A stretch of DNA of 64,000 bases, taken from Candidatus Pelagibacter communis (lineage in GTDB: Bacteria; Pseudomonadota; Alphaproteobacteria; Pelagibacterales; Pelagibacteraceae). The stretch is taken from contig NZ_CVSS01000008.1 in assembly GCF_001180185.1 (NCBI RefSeq), positions 1 to 64,000 of the forward strand, read 5' to 3'. This document shows positions 6,515 to 23,991 of the stretch, piece after piece. A program made the translations under genes and the position numbers. Below the pieces are notes generated by a model that did not search any database, had not been told where the DNA came from, and saw only the letters and a program-made list of their open reading frames with translations. Numbering within the stretch: the first letter of the stretch is position 1; each line of letters starts with the position of its first letter.

Positions 6515-8008
6515 TTATTTCATTGTTGGCATAATAAATTCCGCATTTGATCGGACACCTGAAGGCCATCTAGACGTTACTGTTTTAAGCTTAGTATAAA
6601 ATTTTATTCCTTCCAAACCATGCATTCCACTATCTCCAAATAATGATCTTTTCCAACCACCAAAACTATGAAATGCCATTGGCACTGGGATAGGCACGTT
6701 AATACCAACCATACCTACTTGAATTTTGCTTGCAAAAGTTCTCCCTACATCGCCATCTCTTGTATAAATACTAACTCCATTTCCGTACTCATGGTCGTTA
6801 ATTAATTTTGCAGCCTCCTCAAAAGTTTTTACTCGAACAACTGATAAAACTGGACCAAATATTTCTTCTTTATAAATTCTCATATCTTTATTTACATGAT
6901 CAAATAAGCATCCACCTATATAAAAACCGTTTTCATAACCTTGAAGTTTTAAACCTCTGCCATCAACAACTAACTTAGCACCTTCCTCAACACCTAGATC
7001 AACATAACTTGCAACTTTTTCTAAATGTTCTTTTGTAACTAAAGGGCCCATTTCTGATGTTTTATCCATTCCAGGACCAACTTTTAAAGCTTCAGCTTTT
7101 TTTGATAATCTTGATACAAGTTCATCGCCGATATCTCCAACCGCAACTGCAACTGATTGAGCCATACATCTTTCTCCAGCTGAACCATAAGCGGCACCCA
7201 TAAGACCATTTACTGCACCATCTAAATCGCAATCTGGCATAACAACTAAATGATTTTTTGCTCCACCTAAAGCTTGAACTCTTTTTTCATTTTTAGCTGA
7301 ATTTTCATAAATATATTTTGCAATTGGAGTAGAACCTACAAAACTGACAGCTTTAATATCTTTATTTTCTAAAATTGCATCAACGGCCTCTTTATCCCCA
7401 TTTATCACATTAAATACTCCATCTGGAAGACCAGCATCTTTTAATAATTCTGCTAATCTAATGGAGCATGATGGATCTTTCTCTGAGGGTTTTAGTATGA
7501 ATGTATTTCCACAAGCGATAGCTATTGGAAACATCCACATTGGTACCATTGCAGGAAAGTTAAAAGGTGTTATTCCAGCTACAACTCCTAAAGGTTGTCT
7601 CATCGACCAACTGTCGACATTAGTTCCAACATTTTCAGAAAACTCTCCTTTAAGTAAGTGTGGAATACCGCATGCAAATTCAACAACCTCTAAACCTCTT
7701 GTTAAAGATCCTCTCGCATCTTCATAAACTTTTCCATGCTCTTCTACAATTAATTGAGTGAGTTCATCTGAGTTTTTTTCAATTAACTCTTTAAATTTAA
7801 ACATTATTCTTGCTCTTTGAAGAGAAGGTTTCAATGACCATTCATCAAAAGCTTTTTTGGCAATTTCGACTGATTGATCTAAGTCAGCTTTGGAAGCTAA
7901 TCTTACTTCTTTTTCTTGATCTCCAGTTGCAGGATTAAATACTTTGCCTTTTTTTTCAGAAGAGCCTGGAATTATTTTTCCACCTACAAAATGTTCAATT
8001 AATTTCAT
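6515..8008 (-). CDS. mmsA: Methylmalonate-semialdehyde dehydrogenase (CoA-acylating)
   Basis: Aldehyde dehydrogenase superfamily member of the MmsA type. It oxidises (methyl)malonate semialdehyde to propionyl-CoA or acetyl-CoA with CoA and NAD, in valine and inositol breakdown and in 3-hydroxypropionate routes. The 497 residues match MmsA/IolA. Seen are the N-terminal GKIIPGSSEKKGKVFNPATG signature, the NAD-binding FVGSTPIAKYIY segment near 220-235, and the catalytic cysteine in GSAGERCMAQS near residue 280. The general-base glutamate common in hydrolytic aldehyde dehydrogenases is replaced by a Gly-Gly-Ala-Lys-Asn context, as expected for CoA-dependent MmsA. It lies between sdhB and mdh. A role in DMSP-derived carbon flow (DddC-like) is an inference from the neighbourhood. 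Confidence 0.92.
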   Translation of the reverse strand: MKLIEHFVGGKIIPGSSEKKGKVFNPATGDQEKEVRLASKADLDQSVEIAKKAFDEWSLKPSLQRARIMFKFKELIEKNSDELTQLIVEEHGKVYEDARGSLTRGLEVVEFACGIPHLLKGEFSENVGTNVDSWSMRQPLGVVAGITPFNFPAMVPMWMFPIAIACGNTFILKPSEKDPSCSIRLAELLKDAGLPDGVFNVINGDKEAVDAILENKDIKAVSFVGSTPIAKYIYENSAKNEKRVQALGGAKNHLVVMPDCDLDGAVNGLMGAAYGSAGERCMAQSVAVAVGDIGDELVSRLSKKAEALKVGPGMDKTSEMGPLVTKEHLEKVASYVDLGVEEGAKLVVDGRGLKLQGYENGFYIGGCLFDHVNKDMRIYKEEIFGPVLSVVRVKTFEEAAKLINDHEYGNGVSIYTRDGDVGRTFASKIQVGMVGINVPIPVPMAFHSFGGWKRSLFGDSGMHGLEGIKFYTKLKTVTSRWPSGVRSNAEFIMPTMK

Positions 8009-10926: not shown

Positions 10927-11310
10927 CTAAATAAAATTTTTTCCAATTAAATAAAAAACAATAGTTAAAATTATTGAACCAAAAATTACAATTAGTCCTG
11001 TAATTCTACTTATCTTCAATTCAAATCCATATCCAAAATCCATTATTAAATGTCTAATCTCACTTAAAATTTGAAAAGAGAAAGACCAACAAATACCTAA
11101 AATTATAAACTTTCCTATTATTGAACTCATAAATAATTCTACAATTTCATAATTGTCTTCAGCTAAAAAAAGTAATGAGGCCCACAAGCAAATTAATGTA
11201 ATTGCAATAATATTTATTATGCCTGTAATTCTATGAGAAATAGAAACTAAGGATGAAATATGCCATTTATAAATTTGAATATGAGGAGATAACGGTCTTT
11301 TATTTTCCAT
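10927..11310 (-). CDS. sdhC: Succinate dehydrogenase cytochrome b556 subunit
   Basis: Membrane cytochrome b subunit of complex II that binds haem and ubiquinone. The 127-residue protein starts with the family signature RPLSPHIQIYKW and the SISHRITG motif (Ser/Arg at the quinone site, residues about 24-31). It has three membrane spans and the haem-ligand histidine in IRHLIMDFGYG near 86-96. It overlaps the end of asd by 11 bases and begins the sdhCDAB operon. Confidence 0.95.
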   Translation of the reverse strand: MENKRPLSPHIQIYKWHISSLVSISHRITGIINIIAITLICLWASLLFLAEDNYEIVELFMSSIIGKFIILGICWSFSFQILSEIRHLIMDFGYGFELKISRITGLIVIFGSIILTIVFYLIGKNFI

Positions 11311-12307
11311 AGAAATTATTTTTAAATAATGTTTCAGCTATTTCAACTGCATTCAAAGCTGCACCTCTTAAAAGATTATCTGAAACAATCCACAAATTTA
11401 ATCCGTTTTTAATTGTTTTATCCTCTCTTATTCTAGATATAAATGTTTCATTTTTGCCTTCTGCTTCTAGTGGAGTTATATATCCACCATCACTTCTATC
11501 ATCAATCACTTTGCAACCCTCGAACTTATTTAAAGCTTCAATAATATTTTTAATGGTAAATTTTTTTTCAAATTGAATGTTTACTGACTCTGCATGTGAA
11601 ATAGAAATAGGTAATCTTACACATGTTGCTGTTAAATCAATCTTACTATCGAGTATTTTTTTTGTTTCATTAGTCATTTTTAATTCTTCTTTTGTGTAAC
11701 CATCATCTGAAAATACATCAATATGTGGAATAGCATTAAATGCTATTTGTTTTGTAAAGTTTTTTGATTTTACATTTTGACCAGCTAATACTTGTTTTGT
11801 TTGCTCAATCAGCTCATCCATCGGTGCTTTTCCAGCACCAGAAACTGATTGATAAGTTGAAACAACTATTCTTTTAATAGTAAATAAATCGTGTAAAGGT
11901 TTTAAAGCTAAAACCAGTTGAGCAGTAGAACAGTTAGGATTAGCAATAATATTTTTTTTTATATTTTTTAATTCATTTGCATTAACTTGAGGCACTACAA
12001 GAGGTACTGTTGAGTCCATTCTATAAAAGCTTGAATTGTCGATCACTAAACAATACTTTGCAGCTTCTCCAGCATATTTTTCTGAAATTTTTCCTCCTGC
12101 TGCAAAAAATGCAATTTTTACTTTCGAAAAATCAAAACTTTCCAAATCTGAAACACTATAATCCGTTCCTTTAAAAGAAATTTTCTTTCCACTACTTCTG
12201 GATGAGGCTAGTAAATAGAGATTTTCAATAGGAAGTCCTTTTTTTTCAAGAACCTCTAAAGTTTTTCTACCAACGTTTCCAGTTGCTCCTACAATTGCAA
12301 TATTCAT
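11300..12307 (-). CDS. asd: Aspartate-semialdehyde dehydrogenase
   Basis: Reduces aspartyl phosphate to aspartate semialdehyde, the branch point to lysine/diaminopimelate, threonine and methionine. The 335-residue protein has the NADP loop GATGNVGRKTLEVL at residues 6-19, the catalytic cysteine in NPNCSTAQ near 131-135, and the RLPISISHAESVN segment with the acid/base histidine near 240. It sits between dmdA and sdhC with tiny gaps. Together with dapF, elsewhere in the window, it serves diaminopimelate synthesis. Confidence 0.96.
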   Translation of the reverse strand: MNIAIVGATGNVGRKTLEVLEKKGLPIENLYLLASSRSSGKKISFKGTDYSVSDLESFDFSKVKIAFFAAGGKISEKYAGEAAKYCLVIDNSSFYRMDSTVPLVVPQVNANELKNIKKNIIANPNCSTAQLVLALKPLHDLFTIKRIVVSTYQSVSGAGKAPMDELIEQTKQVLAGQNVKSKNFTKQIAFNAIPHIDVFSDDGYTKEELKMTNETKKILDSKIDLTATCVRLPISISHAESVNIQFEKKFTIKNIIEALNKFEGCKVIDDRSDGGYITPLEAEGKNETFISRIREDKTIKNGLNLWIVSDNLLRGAALNAVEIAETLFKNNFYGK

Positions 12308-12322
12308 GATGTAGCTTTTATA

Positions 12323-13432
12323 CTAGATGAAAGGTAAATCGCAAACTTTAACGCTTAAAGAATTACCATCTATTTCTATTATCCCCGACTCAGAAGCTTT
12401 ACAATATGGCTGATTAATCATAGCTATTCCAATAACTTTTTTGAAATGGGGTGAATAACATGCAGATCTTAGCTCTCCAATAAAATTGTTATTATCGTCT
12501 TTAATATTAACAGACTTGGTTAAGTTTATTTTATTTGTTTCGATAAATACGCCCATTAATTTTCTCTTAATTCCCTCTTTTTCAATCTTTATTAATTTAT
12601 CTTTACCTAAGAAATTTACATTTGCATCCAAATTTACATATTTTTCAAAACCACATTCAAATGGGTTATCATTATTATCAAAATCATTTCCATAAGAAAG
12701 TAACCCGCTTTCAATTCTTTCAATAAGATTTGGGCATCCAGGTTTTATATTAAATTCTTTGCCTAATTCAAAAAGTCGATCGTATAATTCTAAGCCTGAT
12801 TTAGTATTTTCTACATAAACCTCAAAGCCTCCTTGCTTTGACCAACCTGATCTAGCAATTAAATGTTTTGTTTCATTAAATTCAAAATAATCAAATCCAA
12901 AAAATTTTAAATCTTTAATTTTTTTCCCAAAAATCTTTTCCATTAAATCAAACGATTTTGGTCCTTGAACAGCAAAAATATCTACATTAGGTTCATAAAT
13001 TTTCACATCGAATTTATTCCCAGAGGCTAAACCTTTTGCAAAAAAAATTACATCTGAGTCCGCAATTGATACCCACCATCTATCTTCAGCTAATTTTAAT
13101 ATGACAGGATCATTTACTAAATTACCATTTTCATCAATTATAGGACAGTAGTAGCATCTTCCCACTTTGGATTTTGACAAGTCTCTACAAGTCATAAGCT
13201 GAATTAGTTTAGCAGCATCTTTTCCAAAAATTTCGACTTGTCTTTCAGCTGCTACATCCCAGACTTGAACATCTTTTTTTAAATGATCACAAGACTCTTC
13301 TAGCGATCCAAATGCTGCTGGTAAAAGCATATGATTATAAACAGTGTATGCAGTCACACCTTGATTTTCAATTCTTGAGGTGTAAGGAGTACTTCTCAGT
13401 CTTCTTGACCTTGCTATGGAATAATTTTTCAT
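12323..13432 (-). CDS. dmdA: Dimethylsulfoniopropionate (DMSP) demethylase
   Basis: Tetrahydrofolate-dependent enzyme moving a methyl group from DMSP to THF, giving methylmercaptopropionate (MMPA); it belongs to the GcvT fold family. I recognise the sequence as close to the P. ubique DmdA over its whole length. It has the same 369 residues, the N-terminal segment [20 protein letters not shown], the [20 protein letters not shown] region, the [17 protein letters not shown] region and the exact C-terminal VCDLPFI. Glycine-cleavage GcvT proteins do not share these. It is the last gene of a dmdC-dmdB-hydrolase-dmdA run and its start overlaps the hydrolase stop. Confidence 0.95.
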
Positions 13433-14205
13433 TTATTTAAAAATTCTAAAATCTTTTCTCTCATTTCGAATGCTTTTTCAATCATTATCATGTGACCACA
13501 TCCTTTTATTACATGAGTATTTGAATTTTTGATTAAATCAGAAAATTTGTTTCCAGACTCTAAGTTAACCATTTTATCAAGTTCACCGAAAATTAACATT
13601 GAAGGCACTTCTATTTTTTTTGCTGCATTAAGCCCATTTGAATAATTATTGCATGCATTCAAATCTACAGCCAGTATTTCGCTTATGTCTCTTGGTGATT
13701 GAATGATTTTTTCAACAGGATTACCTCCAATAAATTTTTTTGAACCCTCATATCCCCATTTCATCATTAATTTAACAGCATCTGAGTCACCATTTTCCGC
13801 AAGCTCTATTAAGTCAGGATGAACTGGCATTTTATTCGATCCTCCAACAAAAACTAATTTTTTTAATCTACTTTTGTATTTGTATGAGTATTCAAGGATT
13901 TCTAAACAACCTTGTGAATGACCAATTAAAATTAAATTCTTGAGGTTTAATTTGATAAAAACTTGTTCTAACCATTCTGAAATTTTTTCAATACTATCCA
14001 AGCAAGGTCCATCAGAGTTTCCGTGTCCAGGTAAATCAATTGAAAGGACATTAAAATTTTTATTTGAAAAAAATTGCTCAGTTAAGGACCAAACAATATG
14101 CGAAAGACCACTTCCATGTAAAAAAACAATTGTTTCTCTATTTACATCTAGGCCCTGACCTGCATCGGATGCATGAATATTTTTATTGTCTAATTGGAAT
14201 ATCAA
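13429..14205 (-). CDS. Alpha/beta hydrolase inside the dmd operon
   Basis: Soluble alpha/beta-fold hydrolase of 258 residues with no signal peptide. Seen are the oxyanion motif [12 protein letters not shown] near residues 29-40, the nucleophile elbow GHSQG near 96-101 (catalytic Ser), an Asp candidate in FGELDKM near 207-213, and the catalytic His in [11 protein letters not shown] near 236-246. It overlaps dmdA by four bases (ATGA) and follows dmdB after eight bases, so it belongs to the DMSP demethylation operon. The substrate is unknown. A thioesterase or hydrolase acting on a pathway CoA thioester is my inference from context; general esterase activity is equally possible. Confidence 0.85.
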
Positions 14206-14213
14206 TTATTTAC

Positions 14214-15830
14214 CTAAAATTTTTTTCTTAATTCAAATTTTTGAATTTTGCCTGTTGAAGTTTTTGGAAGCTCACAGAACACGACTTGTTTTGGCACTTT
14301 AAAACCTGCAAGAGTTTCTTTACAAAAACTTATTAATTCTTTTTCTGTGACAGGTTTATCTTTGACCATCTCAATAAATGCACATGGAACTTCACCCCAC
14401 TTTTCATCAGGTTTAGCTACGACTGCTGCAATAGAAACTGAAGGATGCTTTGCCAAAGTATTCTCAATTTCAATAGAAGATATATTTTCTCCACCAGAAA
14501 TAATTATATCTTTAGATCGATCTTGAATTTTTACGTATCCATCAGGATGCATGACTGCTAAATCACCAGAGTGAAACCATCCACCGTCCATAGCTTTATT
14601 CGTCGCCTCTTTGTCTTTAAAATAACCTTTCATAACCACATTTCCTCTAATCATAATTTCACCAATTGTTTTCCCATCTTTTGGTACTTCTTTCATTGTT
14701 TCTGGATTCATGACTGTGATGCCCTCAGTATTAGGATATCTTACACCTTGCCTTGCTTTAATCTCATTTTGTTTTTCTTCATCTAATCCATTCCAAACAT
14801 CATTCCAAGCGCATTGTGTAACATGCCCATAAGTTTCTGTTAATCCATAAACATGCATTACTTCGAATCCAAGTTCTTTCATTTTTTTGAATATAATACT
14901 TGGTGGAGGAGCTCCTGCTGTAAGAACGTGAACTTTTTGTTTTAATTTTTTCCTATCTGTGTCAGGTGCACCTGTAATCATATTTAACACTATTGGTGCT
15001 CCACCAAAATGAGTTATGTTATGCTTGTCAATTAAATCAAATATTTTTTTTACATCAATATTTCTTAAACAAATAGTTTTTCCATTCAACATAGGAATAG
15101 TCCAAGGATAACCCCAGCCATTACAATGAAACATCGGTACAATAGTTAAAAAATTTAGTCTGTTAGGCATATTCCATGCAACGGCACTTCCTGTAGACAT
15201 TAAATATGAACCCCTATGATGATAGACAACACCCTTAGGGTTGCCCGTTGTGCCAGATGTATAGCTTAGTGATATTGCCTGCCATTCGTCTTTTGGCATT
15301 TCCCAGTTATAATTTTCATCACCTGAATTCAGAAAACTTTCATATTCCAATTCACCAATTTTTTCACATTTCGATTGATCAGCAAATTTATCATCAATAT
15401 CAATGATGACTATTTTTCTTTTTAAAGTGCTCAATGCTTTCTTTACTTCAATATGAAGTTGTCTGTCTACAACTAATACTTTTGCCTCACTGTGATCTAA
15501 AATGTATGCAATGGTCTTAGCATCCAATCTTATATTAATTGTATTTAAAACTGCACCAGTCATTGGCACTGAATAATGACCCTCAAAAATTTCAGGAGTA
15601 TTAAAAGCTAAAAATGAAACAGTATCTCCTTTTTTAATACCTAATTTGTTTAATGCACTCGCAAATTTGACAGTTCGTTTATAGACCTGGTCCCATGTAT
15701 ATTTTAGGTCTTCATAAATAATCGCTTCATAATTTGGATAAATTTCTTTTGCTCTTTTTAAAAAAGTTAAAGGAGTTAATGGTACATAATTGGCACTATT
15801 TTTGTCCAGATTGGTATCGTAATGGGTCAT
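14214..15830 (-). CDS. dmdB: Methylmercaptopropionate-CoA ligase (AMP-binding acyl-CoA synthetase)
   Basis: ANL-superfamily acyl-CoA synthetase that activates MMPA to MMPA-CoA, the second step after DMSP demethylation. The 538 residues contain the P-loop SYTSGTTGNPKG near 178-190, the HVYGLTETYGH motif near 325-335, the GWFHSGDLAVMHPDGY hinge region near 415-430 and the C-terminal lysine in KTSTGKIQKFELR. Members of this family are otherwise hard to tell from medium-chain acyl-CoA ligases; the position between dmdC and dmdA is what makes DmdB the best call. Confidence 0.9.
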   Translation of the reverse strand: MTHYDTNLDKNSANYVPLTPLTFLKRAKEIYPNYEAIIYEDLKYTWDQVYKRTVKFASALNKLGIKKGDTVSFLAFNTPEIFEGHYSVPMTGAVLNTINIRLDAKTIAYILDHSEAKVLVVDRQLHIEVKKALSTLKRKIVIIDIDDKFADQSKCEKIGELEYESFLNSGDENYNWEMPKDEWQAISLSYTSGTTGNPKGVVYHHRGSYLMSTGSAVAWNMPNRLNFLTIVPMFHCNGWGYPWTIPMLNGKTICLRNIDVKKIFDLIDKHNITHFGGAPIVLNMITGAPDTDRKKLKQKVHVLTAGAPPPSIIFKKMKELGFEVMHVYGLTETYGHVTQCAWNDVWNGLDEEKQNEIKARQGVRYPNTEGITVMNPETMKEVPKDGKTIGEIMIRGNVVMKGYFKDKEATNKAMDGGWFHSGDLAVMHPDGYVKIQDRSKDIIISGGENISSIEIENTLAKHPSVSIAAVVAKPDEKWGEVPCAFIEMVKDKPVTEKELISFCKETLAGFKVPKQVVFCELPKTSTGKIQKFELRKKF

Positions 15831-15836
15831 TTTAAT

Positions 15837-17600
15837 TTAACTAAATTTGAAACTCATAATATTTGAGCTACCAGAAATGGCTGATTTATAATGCTGTTCA
15901 GCTCTTGGTAATACTTTATCAAAATAAAATCTTGCAGTATCTATTTTATCCTCATAGAAATTTTTATTCTCATTAAAATCTTTAAAACTTACCTCCAAAA
16001 CTTTAATCCATGCATATGCAATAGAGACATAGCCTAAAGTTTTTAGATAATCGTTTGCTGCTGCGCTGACATCATCTTTTTCTGTTTTTGCTTTATCTAT
16101 CATCCATTCACTAAATTTTTTCAAGATATTTAGATGATCATTAAATTCTGATACAAATGATTTAATTTTTTCATTATTTAAATTACATTCAGATTTCATC
16201 TGATCTAAAAATTTAAAAATTATATTTCCATTTTTATTTGATAGTTTTCTAAAAACTAAGTCAGCAGCTTGTACTGAATTAGTTCCCTCATAAATAGGTG
16301 TTATTCTATTATCTCTATATAACTGTTCTATACCCTGATCTTTTGTATATCCATAGCCACCGTGAATTTGCATTGCATCACTAGTAATTTCCATAGCTAA
16401 GTCAGTAAATAATGATTTTACGACAGGTGTCATCAAAGATACATAATCAGATGCTTCTTGACGAACTTTTTCATTTGTATGATTTAAGCTAACTTCTGTT
16501 TGTTGAGATAACCAAAAACATAAAGCTCTCTCACCTTCAATAATTGACTTCATATTTAACAATGTTCTTCTGATATCGGCATGTTCAATAATACAGTCAG
16601 CTCCGTTTTTCGATTTTGAATTATTAGTTTTTCCTTGTTTTCTCTCTTTTGCGTAAGAAAGAGAATTTTGGTAAGCAATTTCTGAAATACCTAAACCTTG
16701 AATACCAACAATTATTCTCTCAAGATTCATCATGGTAAACATGGCACTCAAACCTTTTTCTTTAGAGCCTATCATGTAACCAGTGGCATCATCAAAATTT
16801 AAAACACATGTAGCTGATCCTTTAATACCCATCTTGGTCTCAATTGACCCGGTTGATATCCCGTTTCTTGGACCCAATGATCCATCATCTTTTACAATAA
16901 ATTTTGGCACTAAAAATAGACTTATTCCTTTTGTGCCAGCTGGAGAGTCGTCTGCTCTCGCTAAAACTAAGTGAATAATATTTTCTGTTAAATCATGATC
17001 TCCAGATGTAATAAAGATTTTTTGACCAGTTATTTTAAAAGTTCCATCAGATTGTTGTTTTGCTTTCGTTTTTAGTAATCCTAAATCAGTACCACATACT
17101 GGTTCCGTTAAGCACATAGTACCACTCCATTTACCCTCAACTATTTTTGGTAAATATCTGTTCTTAATTTCATCAGTAGCATGATGATTTATACAATTAT
17201 ATGCACCAATACTTAGCTCGCTATAAAGTTTAAAAGATAAACTAGCTGATGACAACATCTCATCAAAAAATGCACTTACTGTTTTTGGCATACCTTGTCC
17301 TCCATATTTTGGATCACAAGATAGAGATGTCCATCCATCTTCGATATACTTTTTATACGCCTCTTTATAACCAGGCGGAGTCCGGACTACACCATTTTCT
17401 AAAACTGCTGGATTTTCATCTCCTACCTTTGCTAATGGCAAAATAAGATTTTGATTAATTTTTGCTGCTTCTTGTAAAATGTCTTTTACCAAATCAGATG
17501 TGACTTCTTTATACTTATCCAGCTCGTTATATTTTTGATTATTTCTTAATTTTTCAAAAAGAAACATCATATCTTCAACAGGTGCTGTATAGCTTGGCAT
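15837..17600 (-). CDS. dmdC: 3-methylmercaptopropionyl-CoA dehydrogenase (acyl-CoA dehydrogenase family)
   Basis: FAD-dependent acyl-CoA dehydrogenase converting MMPA-CoA to methylthioacryloyl-CoA. At 587 residues it belongs to the long acyl-CoA dehydrogenase subgroup with an extra C-terminal domain, as known for DmdC. Seen are MCLTEPVCGTDLG near 156-168, KITGQKIFITSGDHD near 188-202, the IHGGYGYTKDQGIEQLYRD segment near 412-430 and the IYEGTNSVQAADLV region. It is separated from dmdB by six bases. DmdD (the hydratase) is not in the window. Confidence 0.92.
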   Translation of the reverse strand: MPSYTAPVEDMMFLFEKLRNNQKYNELDKYKEVTSDLVKDILQEAAKINQNLILPLAKVGDENPAVLENGVVRTPPGYKEAYKKYIEDGWTSLSCDPKYGGQGMPKTVSAFFDEMLSSASLSFKLYSELSIGAYNCINHHATDEIKNRYLPKIVEGKWSGTMCLTEPVCGTDLGLLKTKAKQQSDGTFKITGQKIFITSGDHDLTENIIHLVLARADDSPAGTKGISLFLVPKFIVKDDGSLGPRNGISTGSIETKMGIKGSATCVLNFDDATGYMIGSKEKGLSAMFTMMNLERIIVGIQGLGISEIAYQNSLSYAKERKQGKTNNSKSKNGADCIIEHADIRRTLLNMKSIIEGERALCFWLSQQTEVSLNHTNEKVRQEASDYVSLMTPVVKSLFTDLAMEITSDAMQIHGGYGYTKDQGIEQLYRDNRITPIYEGTNSVQAADLVFRKLSNKNGNIIFKFLDQMKSECNLNNEKIKSFVSEFNDHLNILKKFSEWMIDKAKTEKDDVSAAANDYLKTLGYVSIAYAWIKVLEVSFKDFNENKNFYEDKIDTARFYFDKVLPRAEQHYKSAISGSSNIMSFKFS

Positions 17601-17626: not shown

Positions 17627-18733
17627 TTATTGCAATTTTGAAATTATCGCATCACCCATTTCTGATGTGGATACTTCTTTCATTCCTTTAGATAAGATGT
17701 CTTTTGTTCTAAGGCCCTCATTTAATACACTTTGAACCGCTTTTTCTAAGGCCTCTGCCTCTTTATCAAGATCCAAAGAATATCTTAAGGCCATAGCAAA
17801 ACTTAAAATTGTAGCAATGGGATTTGCAACACCTTTGCCTGCTATATCTGGAGCAGATCCATGAATAGGCTCATACATTGCTCTCATCTCACCATCTTTA
17901 TTTTTTGCTCCTAAAGAAGCTGAAGGTAAGAGTCCTAGTGATCCTGTCAACATTGATGCTTGATCAGATAACATGTCTCCAAAAAGATTATCTGTTACAA
18001 TTACATCAAATTGTTTTGGATTCCGTAAAAGTTGCATTGCACAGTTATCCGCAAGCATATGATTTAGTTCTACATCTTTAAATTCTTTATCATGAAGTGC
18101 TTGCACTTCTTCCTTCCAAAGTTGTCCTGCTTCCATAACATTTGATTTCTCACAAGAGGTAACTCTGTTGGATCGTTTCTTTGCTAAATCAAAAGCGACT
18201 CTAGCTACTCTAACTATCTCACTGCTTGTGTAAGTATGAGTATTAATTCCTTTTCTTTCACCATTTTCAATTGGTTTAATTCCTCTTGGCTCACCGAAGT
18301 AAATTCCACCTGTTAACTCTCTCACTATCATTATATCTAAATCAGAAACAATTTCAGGTTTTAAAGTTGATGCATCAACTAACTGTTTAAAACATATCGC
18401 AGGTCTCAAATTTGCAAACAGCTTAAGTTCTTTTCTTAATTTTAAAAGTGCTCTTTCTGGTTTTTTAGAAAACTCTACTTTGTCCCACTTAGGTCCACCG
18501 ACAGCACCTAGCATAACCACTGCGCTCTCTAATGCTTTATAAAAAACTTCATCAGTTATCGGTGTACCATGTTTATCGTAAGAACATCCTCCTGCTAAAT
18601 CCTCGTCTATTTCAAAATCAAGAGACTTTTTTTCATTAAACCAATTTATAGTCTTTCTTACTTCTCCTATAACCTCTGGACCAATCCCATCCCCAGGAAG
18701 TAATAAAATTTTTCTTTTTTTAACTTTTATCAT
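17627..18733 (-). CDS. leuB: 3-isopropylmalate dehydrogenase
   Basis: NAD-dependent oxidative decarboxylation of 3-isopropylmalate in leucine synthesis. The 368-residue protein starts with [12 protein letters not shown] near residues 10-21. It has the [14 protein letters not shown] substrate motif near 136-150 and the metal-binding [14 protein letters not shown] region near 246-260, followed by [14 protein letters not shown]. It overlaps leuD by 14 bases. Confidence 0.97.
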
Positions 18734-23895: not shown

Positions 23896-23991
23896 AGCAG
23901 TAATCCCACTAGTGGGCGAACCCTCGCTGACTAGTGTCGATCTCTTTGTTTCCAAAGACACCGCAAATTTAATGTTTTTGCGGAAACTGCC
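23896..23991 (-). ncRNA. Structured RNA / leader upstream of ffh
   Basis: Read on the minus strand, this 96-base stretch folds into a closed multi-helix element. P1 is GGCAGT (23991-23986) with ACTGCT (23901-23896). P2 is a seven-pair hairpin CCGCAAA/TTTGCGG (23983-23977 with 23967-23961). P3 is a GTGTC/GACAC stem (23961-23957 with 23938-23934) capped by CTTTG-GAAA-CAAAG (GNRA loop). P4 is CACTAGT/ACTAGTG (23936-23930 with 23913-23907) continuing into GCGA/TCGC. One P1 pair is G-U on this strand and would be A-C on the other, which supports minus-strand transcription. It lies 13 bases before the ffh ATG. It could be a cis-regulatory leader or a small RNA. I recall a computationally predicted ffh motif in Pelagibacter but cannot confirm identity. 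It has no 4.5S RNA consensus. Confidence 0.7.

Follow-up and report, generated by a model that had tools for sequence, protein, structure and literature searches.

Dimethylsulfoniopropionate (DMSP) is an algal sulfur compound, and the SAR11 bacteria, as the alphaproteobacterial order Pelagibacterales is known, are very abundant in the ocean. We analyzed a stretch of 64,000 nucleotides from Candidatus Pelagibacter communis (contig NZ_CVSS01000008.1, positions 1 to 64,000; hereafter the window), taken from a 1.0 Mb genome (label G000) in 62 contigs that is 77% complete. Among its DMSP demethylation genes lies an alpha/beta hydrolase gene at 13429-14205, which we label HYD. Within this bacterial family HYD tracks dmdB, dmdC and fadB rather than dmdA, and across the sampled Alphaproteobacteria it is a near-obligate partner of PRK08134-type metY. 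The features on which the argument turns are the following.

12323..13432, minus strand: DmdA, DMSP demethylase, 369 amino acids (NF009133; 3tfh)
13429..13432, minus strand: ATGA stop/start overlap of 4 nt, HYD TGA with dmdA ATG (from sequence)
13429..14205, minus strand: HYD, alpha/beta hydrolase, 258 amino acids, TTG start (open reading frame, Pfam, homologues, structure model)
13492..13494, minus strand: codon of catalytic His238 (GHM), invariant in 92/92
13576..13578, minus strand: codon of catalytic Asp210 (DKM), invariant in 92/92
13915..13917, minus strand: codon of the catalytic nucleophile Ser97 (GHSQG), invariant in 92/92
14206..14213, minus strand: 8-nt gap from the stop of the dmdB-type ligase to HYD (from sequence)
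14214..15830, minus strand: DmdB-type acyl-CoA ligase, 538 amino acids, PRK08162 family (models and position)
15837..17600, minus strand: DmdC-type acyl-CoA dehydrogenase, 587 amino acids (6ijc match; co-inherited with HYD)

An earlier note on this DNA had placed an intact Ser-Asp-His hydrolase between dmdB and dmdA, with an 8-base gap and a 4-base overlap, and the coordinates bear this out. The TTG start is supported because homologues start at, or beside, the same residue. On model and structure matches, the identity of DmdA is secure, and with it the presence of a demethylase in the operon: the protein scores 569 bits to NF009133 against a cut-off of 410, and its closest solved chain is 3tfh (E 1.6e-196), which we take to be Pelagibacter DmdA. 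The dehydrogenase matches the solved chain 6ijc (E 1.4e-149), presumably DmdC. The ligase passes the PRK08162 acyl-CoA synthetase model (862 vs 677 bits) and falls far below NF005426, the ‘3-(methylthio)propionyl-CoA ligase’ model (348 vs 822 bits). Since the equivalog cut-off for a ligase of methylmercaptopropionyl-CoA (MMPA-CoA) is not reached, the name dmdB rests on position. The note’s remark that DmdD is not here agrees with a scan limited to the 12 genes between 8051 and 20734 of the window, in which no crotonase appeared.

HYD is an intact member of the alpha/beta hydrolase superfamily, exceeding the Pfam cut-offs of PF00561 (88.5 vs 25.8 bits) and PF12697 (61.4 vs 26.3 bits), and all 92 aligned family members keep the Ser97/Asp210/His238 triad in canonical order. 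Its structure model (mean predicted confidence, pLDDT, 92.5) aligns over 249-252 of 258 residues with the solved folds 2xua, 1va4 and 1a8q (Z 31.7-32.4, rmsd 2.2, 18-22% identity) and resembles an enol-lactonase, arylesterases, haloperoxidases and carboxylesterases. Close folds also include a Pseudomonas fluorescens esterase, one entry of which has a title on switching hydrolysis to perhydrolysis, and Est816, titled an N-acyl-homoserine-lactone-degrading enzyme. Among 25 of the 26 NCBIfam families listed, which include the equivalogs PcaD, MenH, BioH and RutD, none reached its cut-off (best 74.3 bits), and neither these nor Pfam gave a crotonase match. The gene is under purifying selection, with dN 0.082 and dS 1.00 relative to a second family genome (G003), similar to DmdA (0.075 and 1.00).

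Searches of 147 genomes of the window’s family found DmdA over its cut-off in 75, DmdC in 82 and HYD in 80. Any HYD match occurred in 89 genomes, from which we dropped nine with only 24-30% identical relatives; the remaining 80 include four fragments located where contigs end. The near-complete subset comprises 53 genomes (at least 90% complete, at most 5% contaminated), and here HYD and DmdC occur together in 31, are both absent from 22, and are never found one without the other. As 26 of the 53 belong to the window’s genus and relatives are not independent, these counts overstate the number of events. HYD and DmdA mismatch in a single near-complete genome, G001. Across all 147 genomes HYD and DmdC disagree in 12 (five HYD only, seven DmdC only) and HYD and DmdA in nine (seven HYD only, two DmdA only). 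The seven DmdC-only cases read as assembly gaps: the contigs of G025 (also dmdA-positive), G050, G062, G116 and G006 end within or just beside the cluster, the DmdC match of G133 begins at contig base 1, and the contig of G087 begins 200 bases before the gene that others carry between dmdC and dmdB. HYD without a DmdC match was found in G049, G068, G082, G141 and G142, all below 90% completeness. A contig search for HYD relatives returned at least 80 loci, and among the matches listed all were labelled Pelagibacteraceae or Pelagibacterales, with no named host outside SAR11.

Constant adjacency to dmdA, which the earlier note had raised, holds in part. In 54 of the 80 HYD-positive genomes HYD is the gene immediately 5' of dmdA, and in eight a single gene intervenes, an arrangement that is not chance. 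The other 18 comprise ten genomes in which it lies with metY and eight more (G054, G049, G121, G086, G010, G130, G046, G122). Co-occurrence with the dmd genes, on which the note’s proposal depended, is thus present, as the agreement with DmdC in 53/53 near-complete genomes attests, but the description of HYD as locked to dmdA and the demethylation operon does not stand. Four genomes (G054, G046, G130 and G121) keep HYD-DmdB-DmdC-FadB without an operon copy of dmdA. G054, 76% complete, has no DmdA over the cut-off, and in the other three dmdA is absent from its usual place while HYD remains beside DmdB, DmdC and FadB (loci L288-L290). Conversely G001, 95% complete, has dmdA and lacks DmdC, FadB and HYD.

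Several relatives show the gene order leuB, FadB, dmdC, (a methylenetetrahydrofolate-reductase-like gene), dmdB, HYD, dmdA and asd, and FadB lies beside dmdC in G014, G072, G056 and G054 as well as in 13 of 14 further loci (one partial). The window is transcribed in the order leuB-like gene, dmdC, dmdB, HYD, dmdA, asd and then the succinate dehydrogenase genes. Its flanking genes are:

17627-18733, minus strand: leuB-like gene
11300-12307, minus strand: asd, semialdehyde dehydrogenase (succinate dehydrogenase genes come next)

Variants of the arrangement were seen elsewhere in the family. DmdA of G105 and G113 (L065, L067) shares 86% identity with its counterpart in G051, which is of a different lineage, and their DmdB shares 91-92% with that of the window, a sign of allele replacement at dmdA in an operon that is otherwise window-like. 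A dmdA swap is not by itself a sufficient reason for a missing HYD; G051 keeps HYD. At a second locus in G043 (L062:8703-15015) another DmdA passes the family cut-off at 45% identity and is accompanied, amid unassigned genes, by a DmdA/GcvT-like protein of 32% identity. In G072, of genus g2, a GFO/IDH/MocA family oxidoreductase lies between the hydrolase and dmdA (L071:9377-10303), and NDUS4-like, SbmA-like and auxin-efflux-like genes lie downstream of dmdA (L071:6072-8261). In G086, dmdB and the hydrolase are separated by an OsmC-like gene and one for an ECHDC3-like crotonase (L291:7837-9099). Strong induction of osmC in Pelagibacter when sulfur is limiting has been reported (PMC5069961). Rfam scans of the window and eight loci gave no S-adenosylmethionine (SAM) riboswitch at the gathering thresholds, and shared regulation through such an element is not shown. 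The same scans matched the ffh sRNA family at window 23898-23951 on the minus strand.

A second association of HYD is with metY. Ten genomes of the window’s genus have dmdA without an adjacent HYD, dmdB lying directly before dmdA in all ten. Their only close HYD homologue, 37-40% identical, overlaps the end of a PRK08134-type metY by 4 nt, and a MetY of this type exceeds its cut-off in exactly these 10 of the 147 family genomes. In a class-level sample of 289 alphaproteobacterial genomes, HYD was found in 75 (two of the window’s family) and PRK08134-type MetY over the cut-off in 73. Outside the family there are 73 HYD and 73 MetY genomes, 71 of them shared, and in every shared genome the two genes lie on one contig and one strand with HYD downstream, separated by a median of 16 nt between match ends (largest 427 nt). 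In the four genomes with an unpaired gene (G210, G217, G257, G368) that gene lies at a contig end. Examined gene by gene, 40 such loci all have MetY on the same strand; 37 pass a strict rule for distance directly upstream, and in the remaining three (L241, L254, L259), where open reading frames were called over-long, match coordinates place MetY directly upstream. Plasmid records gave no match to the metY-linked hydrolase. The HYD family is therefore joined to metY both outside the window’s family and in 10/147 genomes within it, and the tie to DMSP demethylation itself that the earlier note had drawn gives way: the link of HYD is to methanethiol release and use.

Beside the metY-hydrolase pair some further features recur. 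Small genes recur downstream of metY-HYD, and a 369-amino-acid protein without a Pfam or NCBIfam match follows the pair in eight of the ten genomes, not in G113 or G127. A PYLIS_3 (mttB) pyrrolysine insertion sequence was matched by Rfam at L255:14172-14271, about 5 kb from a metY-hydrolase-fadB cluster.

L063:7687-8796 (P0002); L066:10325-11434; ends of L085-L090, L092 and L094: 369-amino-acid protein

The two settings of HYD overlap. A homologue of DmdA, DmdB, DmdC or FadB lies in 12 of 40 metY-HYD loci outside the family (FadB in 5, DmdB in 7, DmdC in 4, DmdA in 2) and in none of 40 controls (Fisher p 1.9e-4). The metY-HYD stretches compared span 7 to 18 kb, and the controls, of similar total length, were taken from 29 of the HYD-positive genomes; 23 controls surround metX homologues, the other 17 are arbitrary stretches, and the set is not a random draw. 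In a tree of 92 hydrolases, midpoint-rooted and hence unsure as to direction and long-branch placement, the dmd-linked members form one clade (98/98), adjoined by the long-branched G054 sequence and nested in a group of 54 rows that also contains metY-linked hydrolases (99/97). The ten metY-linked family members form a clade (97/88) beside the hydrolase of G306, a genome of a different family (100/100), whose metY is 88% identical to that of G043; this suggests that the metY-HYD pair may have been transferred between lineages.

This pairing bears on what HYD does. One explanation, which we consider unlikely, is that HYD is a housekeeping thioesterase rescuing CoA from dead-end MMPA-CoA, acryloyl-CoA and similar esters when DmdB-DmdC-FadB stalls. 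It would suit the linkage of HYD to these three genes without an operon dmdA, and the dmdB and dmdC enzymes are described as broad in substrate (PMC5395565). It leaves unaccounted for the metY pairing in 71 genomes and the ten family genomes with metY-HYD; the recycling of MMPA-CoA that the earlier note had offered as one option thus fits the dmd setting and fails to explain the metY one.

A rival that takes metY as its starting point, and which strikes us as improbable to a like degree, holds that HYD clears a by-product arising around MetY, for example an ester or lactone derived from O-acylhomoserine or SAM, and that it was recruited to the dmd operon only because this operon increases methanethiol flux. 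No dmd homologue lies near 28 of the 40 metY-HYD loci, and Est816 is among the close folds. Near-complete family genomes without dmdC, however, also lack HYD, and as many of them still have a metY, metY alone does not require HYD in this family.

MetX has the alpha/beta hydrolase fold and works next to MetY, and the metY neighbour prompted the idea that HYD fills in for a missing MetX, as a short homoserine O-acyltransferase supplying O-acetylhomoserine when methanethiol is made. Besides the fold that MetX and HYD have in common, the near-obligate metY neighbourhood and the P. fluorescens esterase with its perhydrolysis switch would suit such a role. MetX homologues over the acetyl-type cut-off are found in 0/147 family and 0/36 metY-HYD genomes, and G254, 99% complete, has metY-HYD but neither MetX (at E 1e-40) nor MetA (at E 1e-20). 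Against this, a strong MetX homologue (at least 415 bits) is present in 123/147 family genomes, a figure we use because the 133/147 with any MetX match include HYD itself or weaker relatives, and in 24 of the 36 metY-HYD genomes. A MetA search in ten of the other 12 was positive for nine, and the two beyond these ten, G197 and G276, have weaker MetX-like hits; among the 34 genomes thus settled only G254 is without both. With MetX or MetA present in most genomes the idea is weakened. Moreover, HYD-less family genomes still keep a metY, and the agreement of HYD with dmdC in all 53 near-complete genomes would go unexplained. We rate it a shade less probable than the two preceding explanations.

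The reading that draws on both settings needs a hydratase, and FadB, a 3-hydroxyacyl-CoA dehydrogenase fused to an enoyl-CoA hydratase domain, is the candidate. Of the 15 genomes tested 14 have it, the sole exception being the HYD-less G001; the HYD-less G009 gave no FadB-type match in the crotonase search. The window’s genome encodes FadB elsewhere (G000:C4:4275-6494, L123), 81% identical to that of G014, and it seems that in the window’s genus the hydratase has been lost or relocated from the dmd operon. In all nine FadB sequences aligned, GGGxE and a second Glu (GLVE) stand at the hydratase Glu places and the dehydrogenase His and Glu are intact. The Glu pair is described as catalytic in enoyl-CoA hydratase and DmdD (PMC3660561). 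A search for crotonases (PF00378) in six family genomes found eight stand-alone members, and by motif all eight lack one or both catalytic Glu. G026, 99% complete and HYD-positive, has FadB and a single stand-alone crotonase, with Gln and Gly in place of the two Glu, leaving FadB as its only PF00378 protein with both Glu in a search that covered the PF00378 fold only; a second stand-alone type (G003, G043, G009) lacks the second Glu. The window’s genome likewise has one FadB and one stand-alone crotonase with both Glu positions changed. The latter (L299:1495-2268) passes the PRK08139 ‘enoyl-CoA hydratase’ cut-off (343.7 vs 313 bits), an annotation that the changed residues make doubtful.

From the gene linkage, co-inheritance and intact active-site motifs observed above we infer that HYD acts between MMPA-CoA and methanethiol. 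We hypothesize that it is a dedicated hydrolase of this segment, serving methionine synthesis, a reading we hold tentatively and at close to an even chance, its substrate being a prediction. DmdA would make methylmercaptopropionate (MMPA), DmdB would convert it to MMPA-CoA, and DmdC would yield methylthioacryloyl-CoA (MTA-CoA). FadB could then add water to MTA-CoA, freeing methanethiol, which MetY would fix into methionine, while HYD would hydrolyze the remaining CoA thioester, malonate-semialdehyde-CoA, to malonate semialdehyde. The latter might pass to an MmsA-type dehydrogenase encoded 4.3 kb further on, a possible sink, or be decarboxylated to acetaldehyde.

6515..8008, minus strand: MmsA-type CoA-acylating methylmalonate-semialdehyde dehydrogenase (TIGR01722, 701.5 bits vs cut-off 448.5)

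On this scheme a hydratase, FadB, and a separate Ser hydrolase, HYD, would share the hydration and hydrolysis that DmdD performs: DmdD hydrates MTA-CoA, methanethiol then leaves spontaneously, and DmdD also hydrolyzes the CoA ester (PMC3660561). The earlier note’s suggestion of a hydrolase on a pathway thioester, possibly replacing the thioesterase half of DmdD, thereby becomes the best-supported reading, with the thioester itself predicted.

An oxidative form of the release would give HYD another substrate. FadB would hydrate MTA-CoA and its dehydrogenase domain, acting before methanethiol falls off, would oxidize the hemithioacetal to 3-methylthio-3-oxopropionyl-CoA; HYD would then cleave the S-methyl thioester, so that methanethiol passes straight to MetY and malonyl-CoA remains for lipid synthesis. 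This would explain both the dmd and the metY partners of HYD and the fusion of the hydratase to a dehydrogenase, whose motifs are intact in 9/9 FadB, and if true it would make HYD a methanethiol-releasing enzyme of a new kind, a hydrolase of S-methyl thioesters. Methanethiol is, however, reported to leave spontaneously once hydration has taken place (PMC3660561), and we regard this form as the least probable of the proposals considered here.

Several points weigh against a dedicated hydrolase of the MMPA-CoA to methanethiol segment. None of the nearest solved folds of HYD is described as a CoA thioesterase. The genomes compared are relatives and not independent samples; the HYD of G054 is a long-branched relative, 36% identical; and distant DmdA-like genes, which might still act on DMSP, lie elsewhere in G121, G130 and G046 (364, 351 and 246 bits, respectively, against the cut-off of 410), so that what these three lack is the operon copy of dmdA. 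Other short acyl groups can also be handled by dmdB and dmdC homologues (PMC5395565), and linkage to these genes therefore does not fix the substrate of HYD. Given that hydration is followed by spontaneous departure of methanethiol, there is no strict tie between MetY and the removal of the CoA ester. Searches of the window’s genome found neither MetX nor MetY, probably because the assembly is 77% complete. As the stretch compared holds no DMSP-pathway homologue at 28 of the 40 metY-HYD loci outside the family, the ancestral role of HYD could be another reaction next to MetY, wider than DMSP. Nor need direct use of methanethiol be general: labelling in two Ruegeria species traced only 33% and 50% of methionine to direct capture (PMC7157515).

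A dedicated hydrolase would nonetheless answer a gap in SAR11 physiology. Unable to use sulfate, Pelagibacter HTCC1062 relies on reduced sulfur compounds such as DMSP, and methanethiol formation is stated to have been demonstrated in Pelagibacter with the gene not identified and DmdD orthologues absent (PMC5069961). SAR116 is reported to have dmdB and dmdC homologues but no dmdD (PMC8547437). HYD is a good candidate for a step that SAR11 performs with unknown genes, and FadB and HYD together provide two candidate genes for the Pelagibacter methanethiol gap. If true, a major marine sulfur pathway would be completed, and HYD could give a better metagenome marker than dmdD for methanethiol production. 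A search of full-text literature, in which subscription journals were mostly beyond reach, found nothing naming HYD or the metY-hydrolase pair; the fold and the pathway are known, and what seems new is the assignment of the HYD family to the pathway, together with its MetY pairing.

Compared with known systems, HYD has the fold of PcaD-type enol-lactonase and of arylesterase/haloperoxidase (2xua, 1va4, 1a8q; Z 31.7-32.4) but differs in its low identity to them (18-22%), in reaching no NCBIfam equivalog cut-off and in its genomic partners. It differs from MetX in its length of 258 amino acids and in score, the seven HYD genes listed scoring 18.0-22.8 bits on TIGR01392, whose cut-off is 500, and MetX or MetA is usually present besides HYD. 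The pair of PRK08134-type MetY and hydrolase is alike in that an HYD-family gene lies directly 3' of this MetY in 71/73 genomes of the class and 10/10 of the family, whereas the window’s hydrolase lies in a dmd operon and such a MetY occurs in only 10/147 family genomes. AcuH, an acryloyl-CoA hydratase that acts on MTA-CoA, is a known stand-in where DmdD is missing (PMC5395565); it is a crotonase, and the eight stand-alone crotonases of the family are without one or both catalytic Glu. DmdD is the closest in role, the proposed place of HYD being a hydrolysis linked to MTA-CoA hydration and DmdD performing both (PMC3660561). DmdD belongs to the crotonase superfamily and works with a Glu/Glu pair, whereas HYD is a Ser-Asp-His alpha/beta hydrolase that would leave the hydration to FadB.

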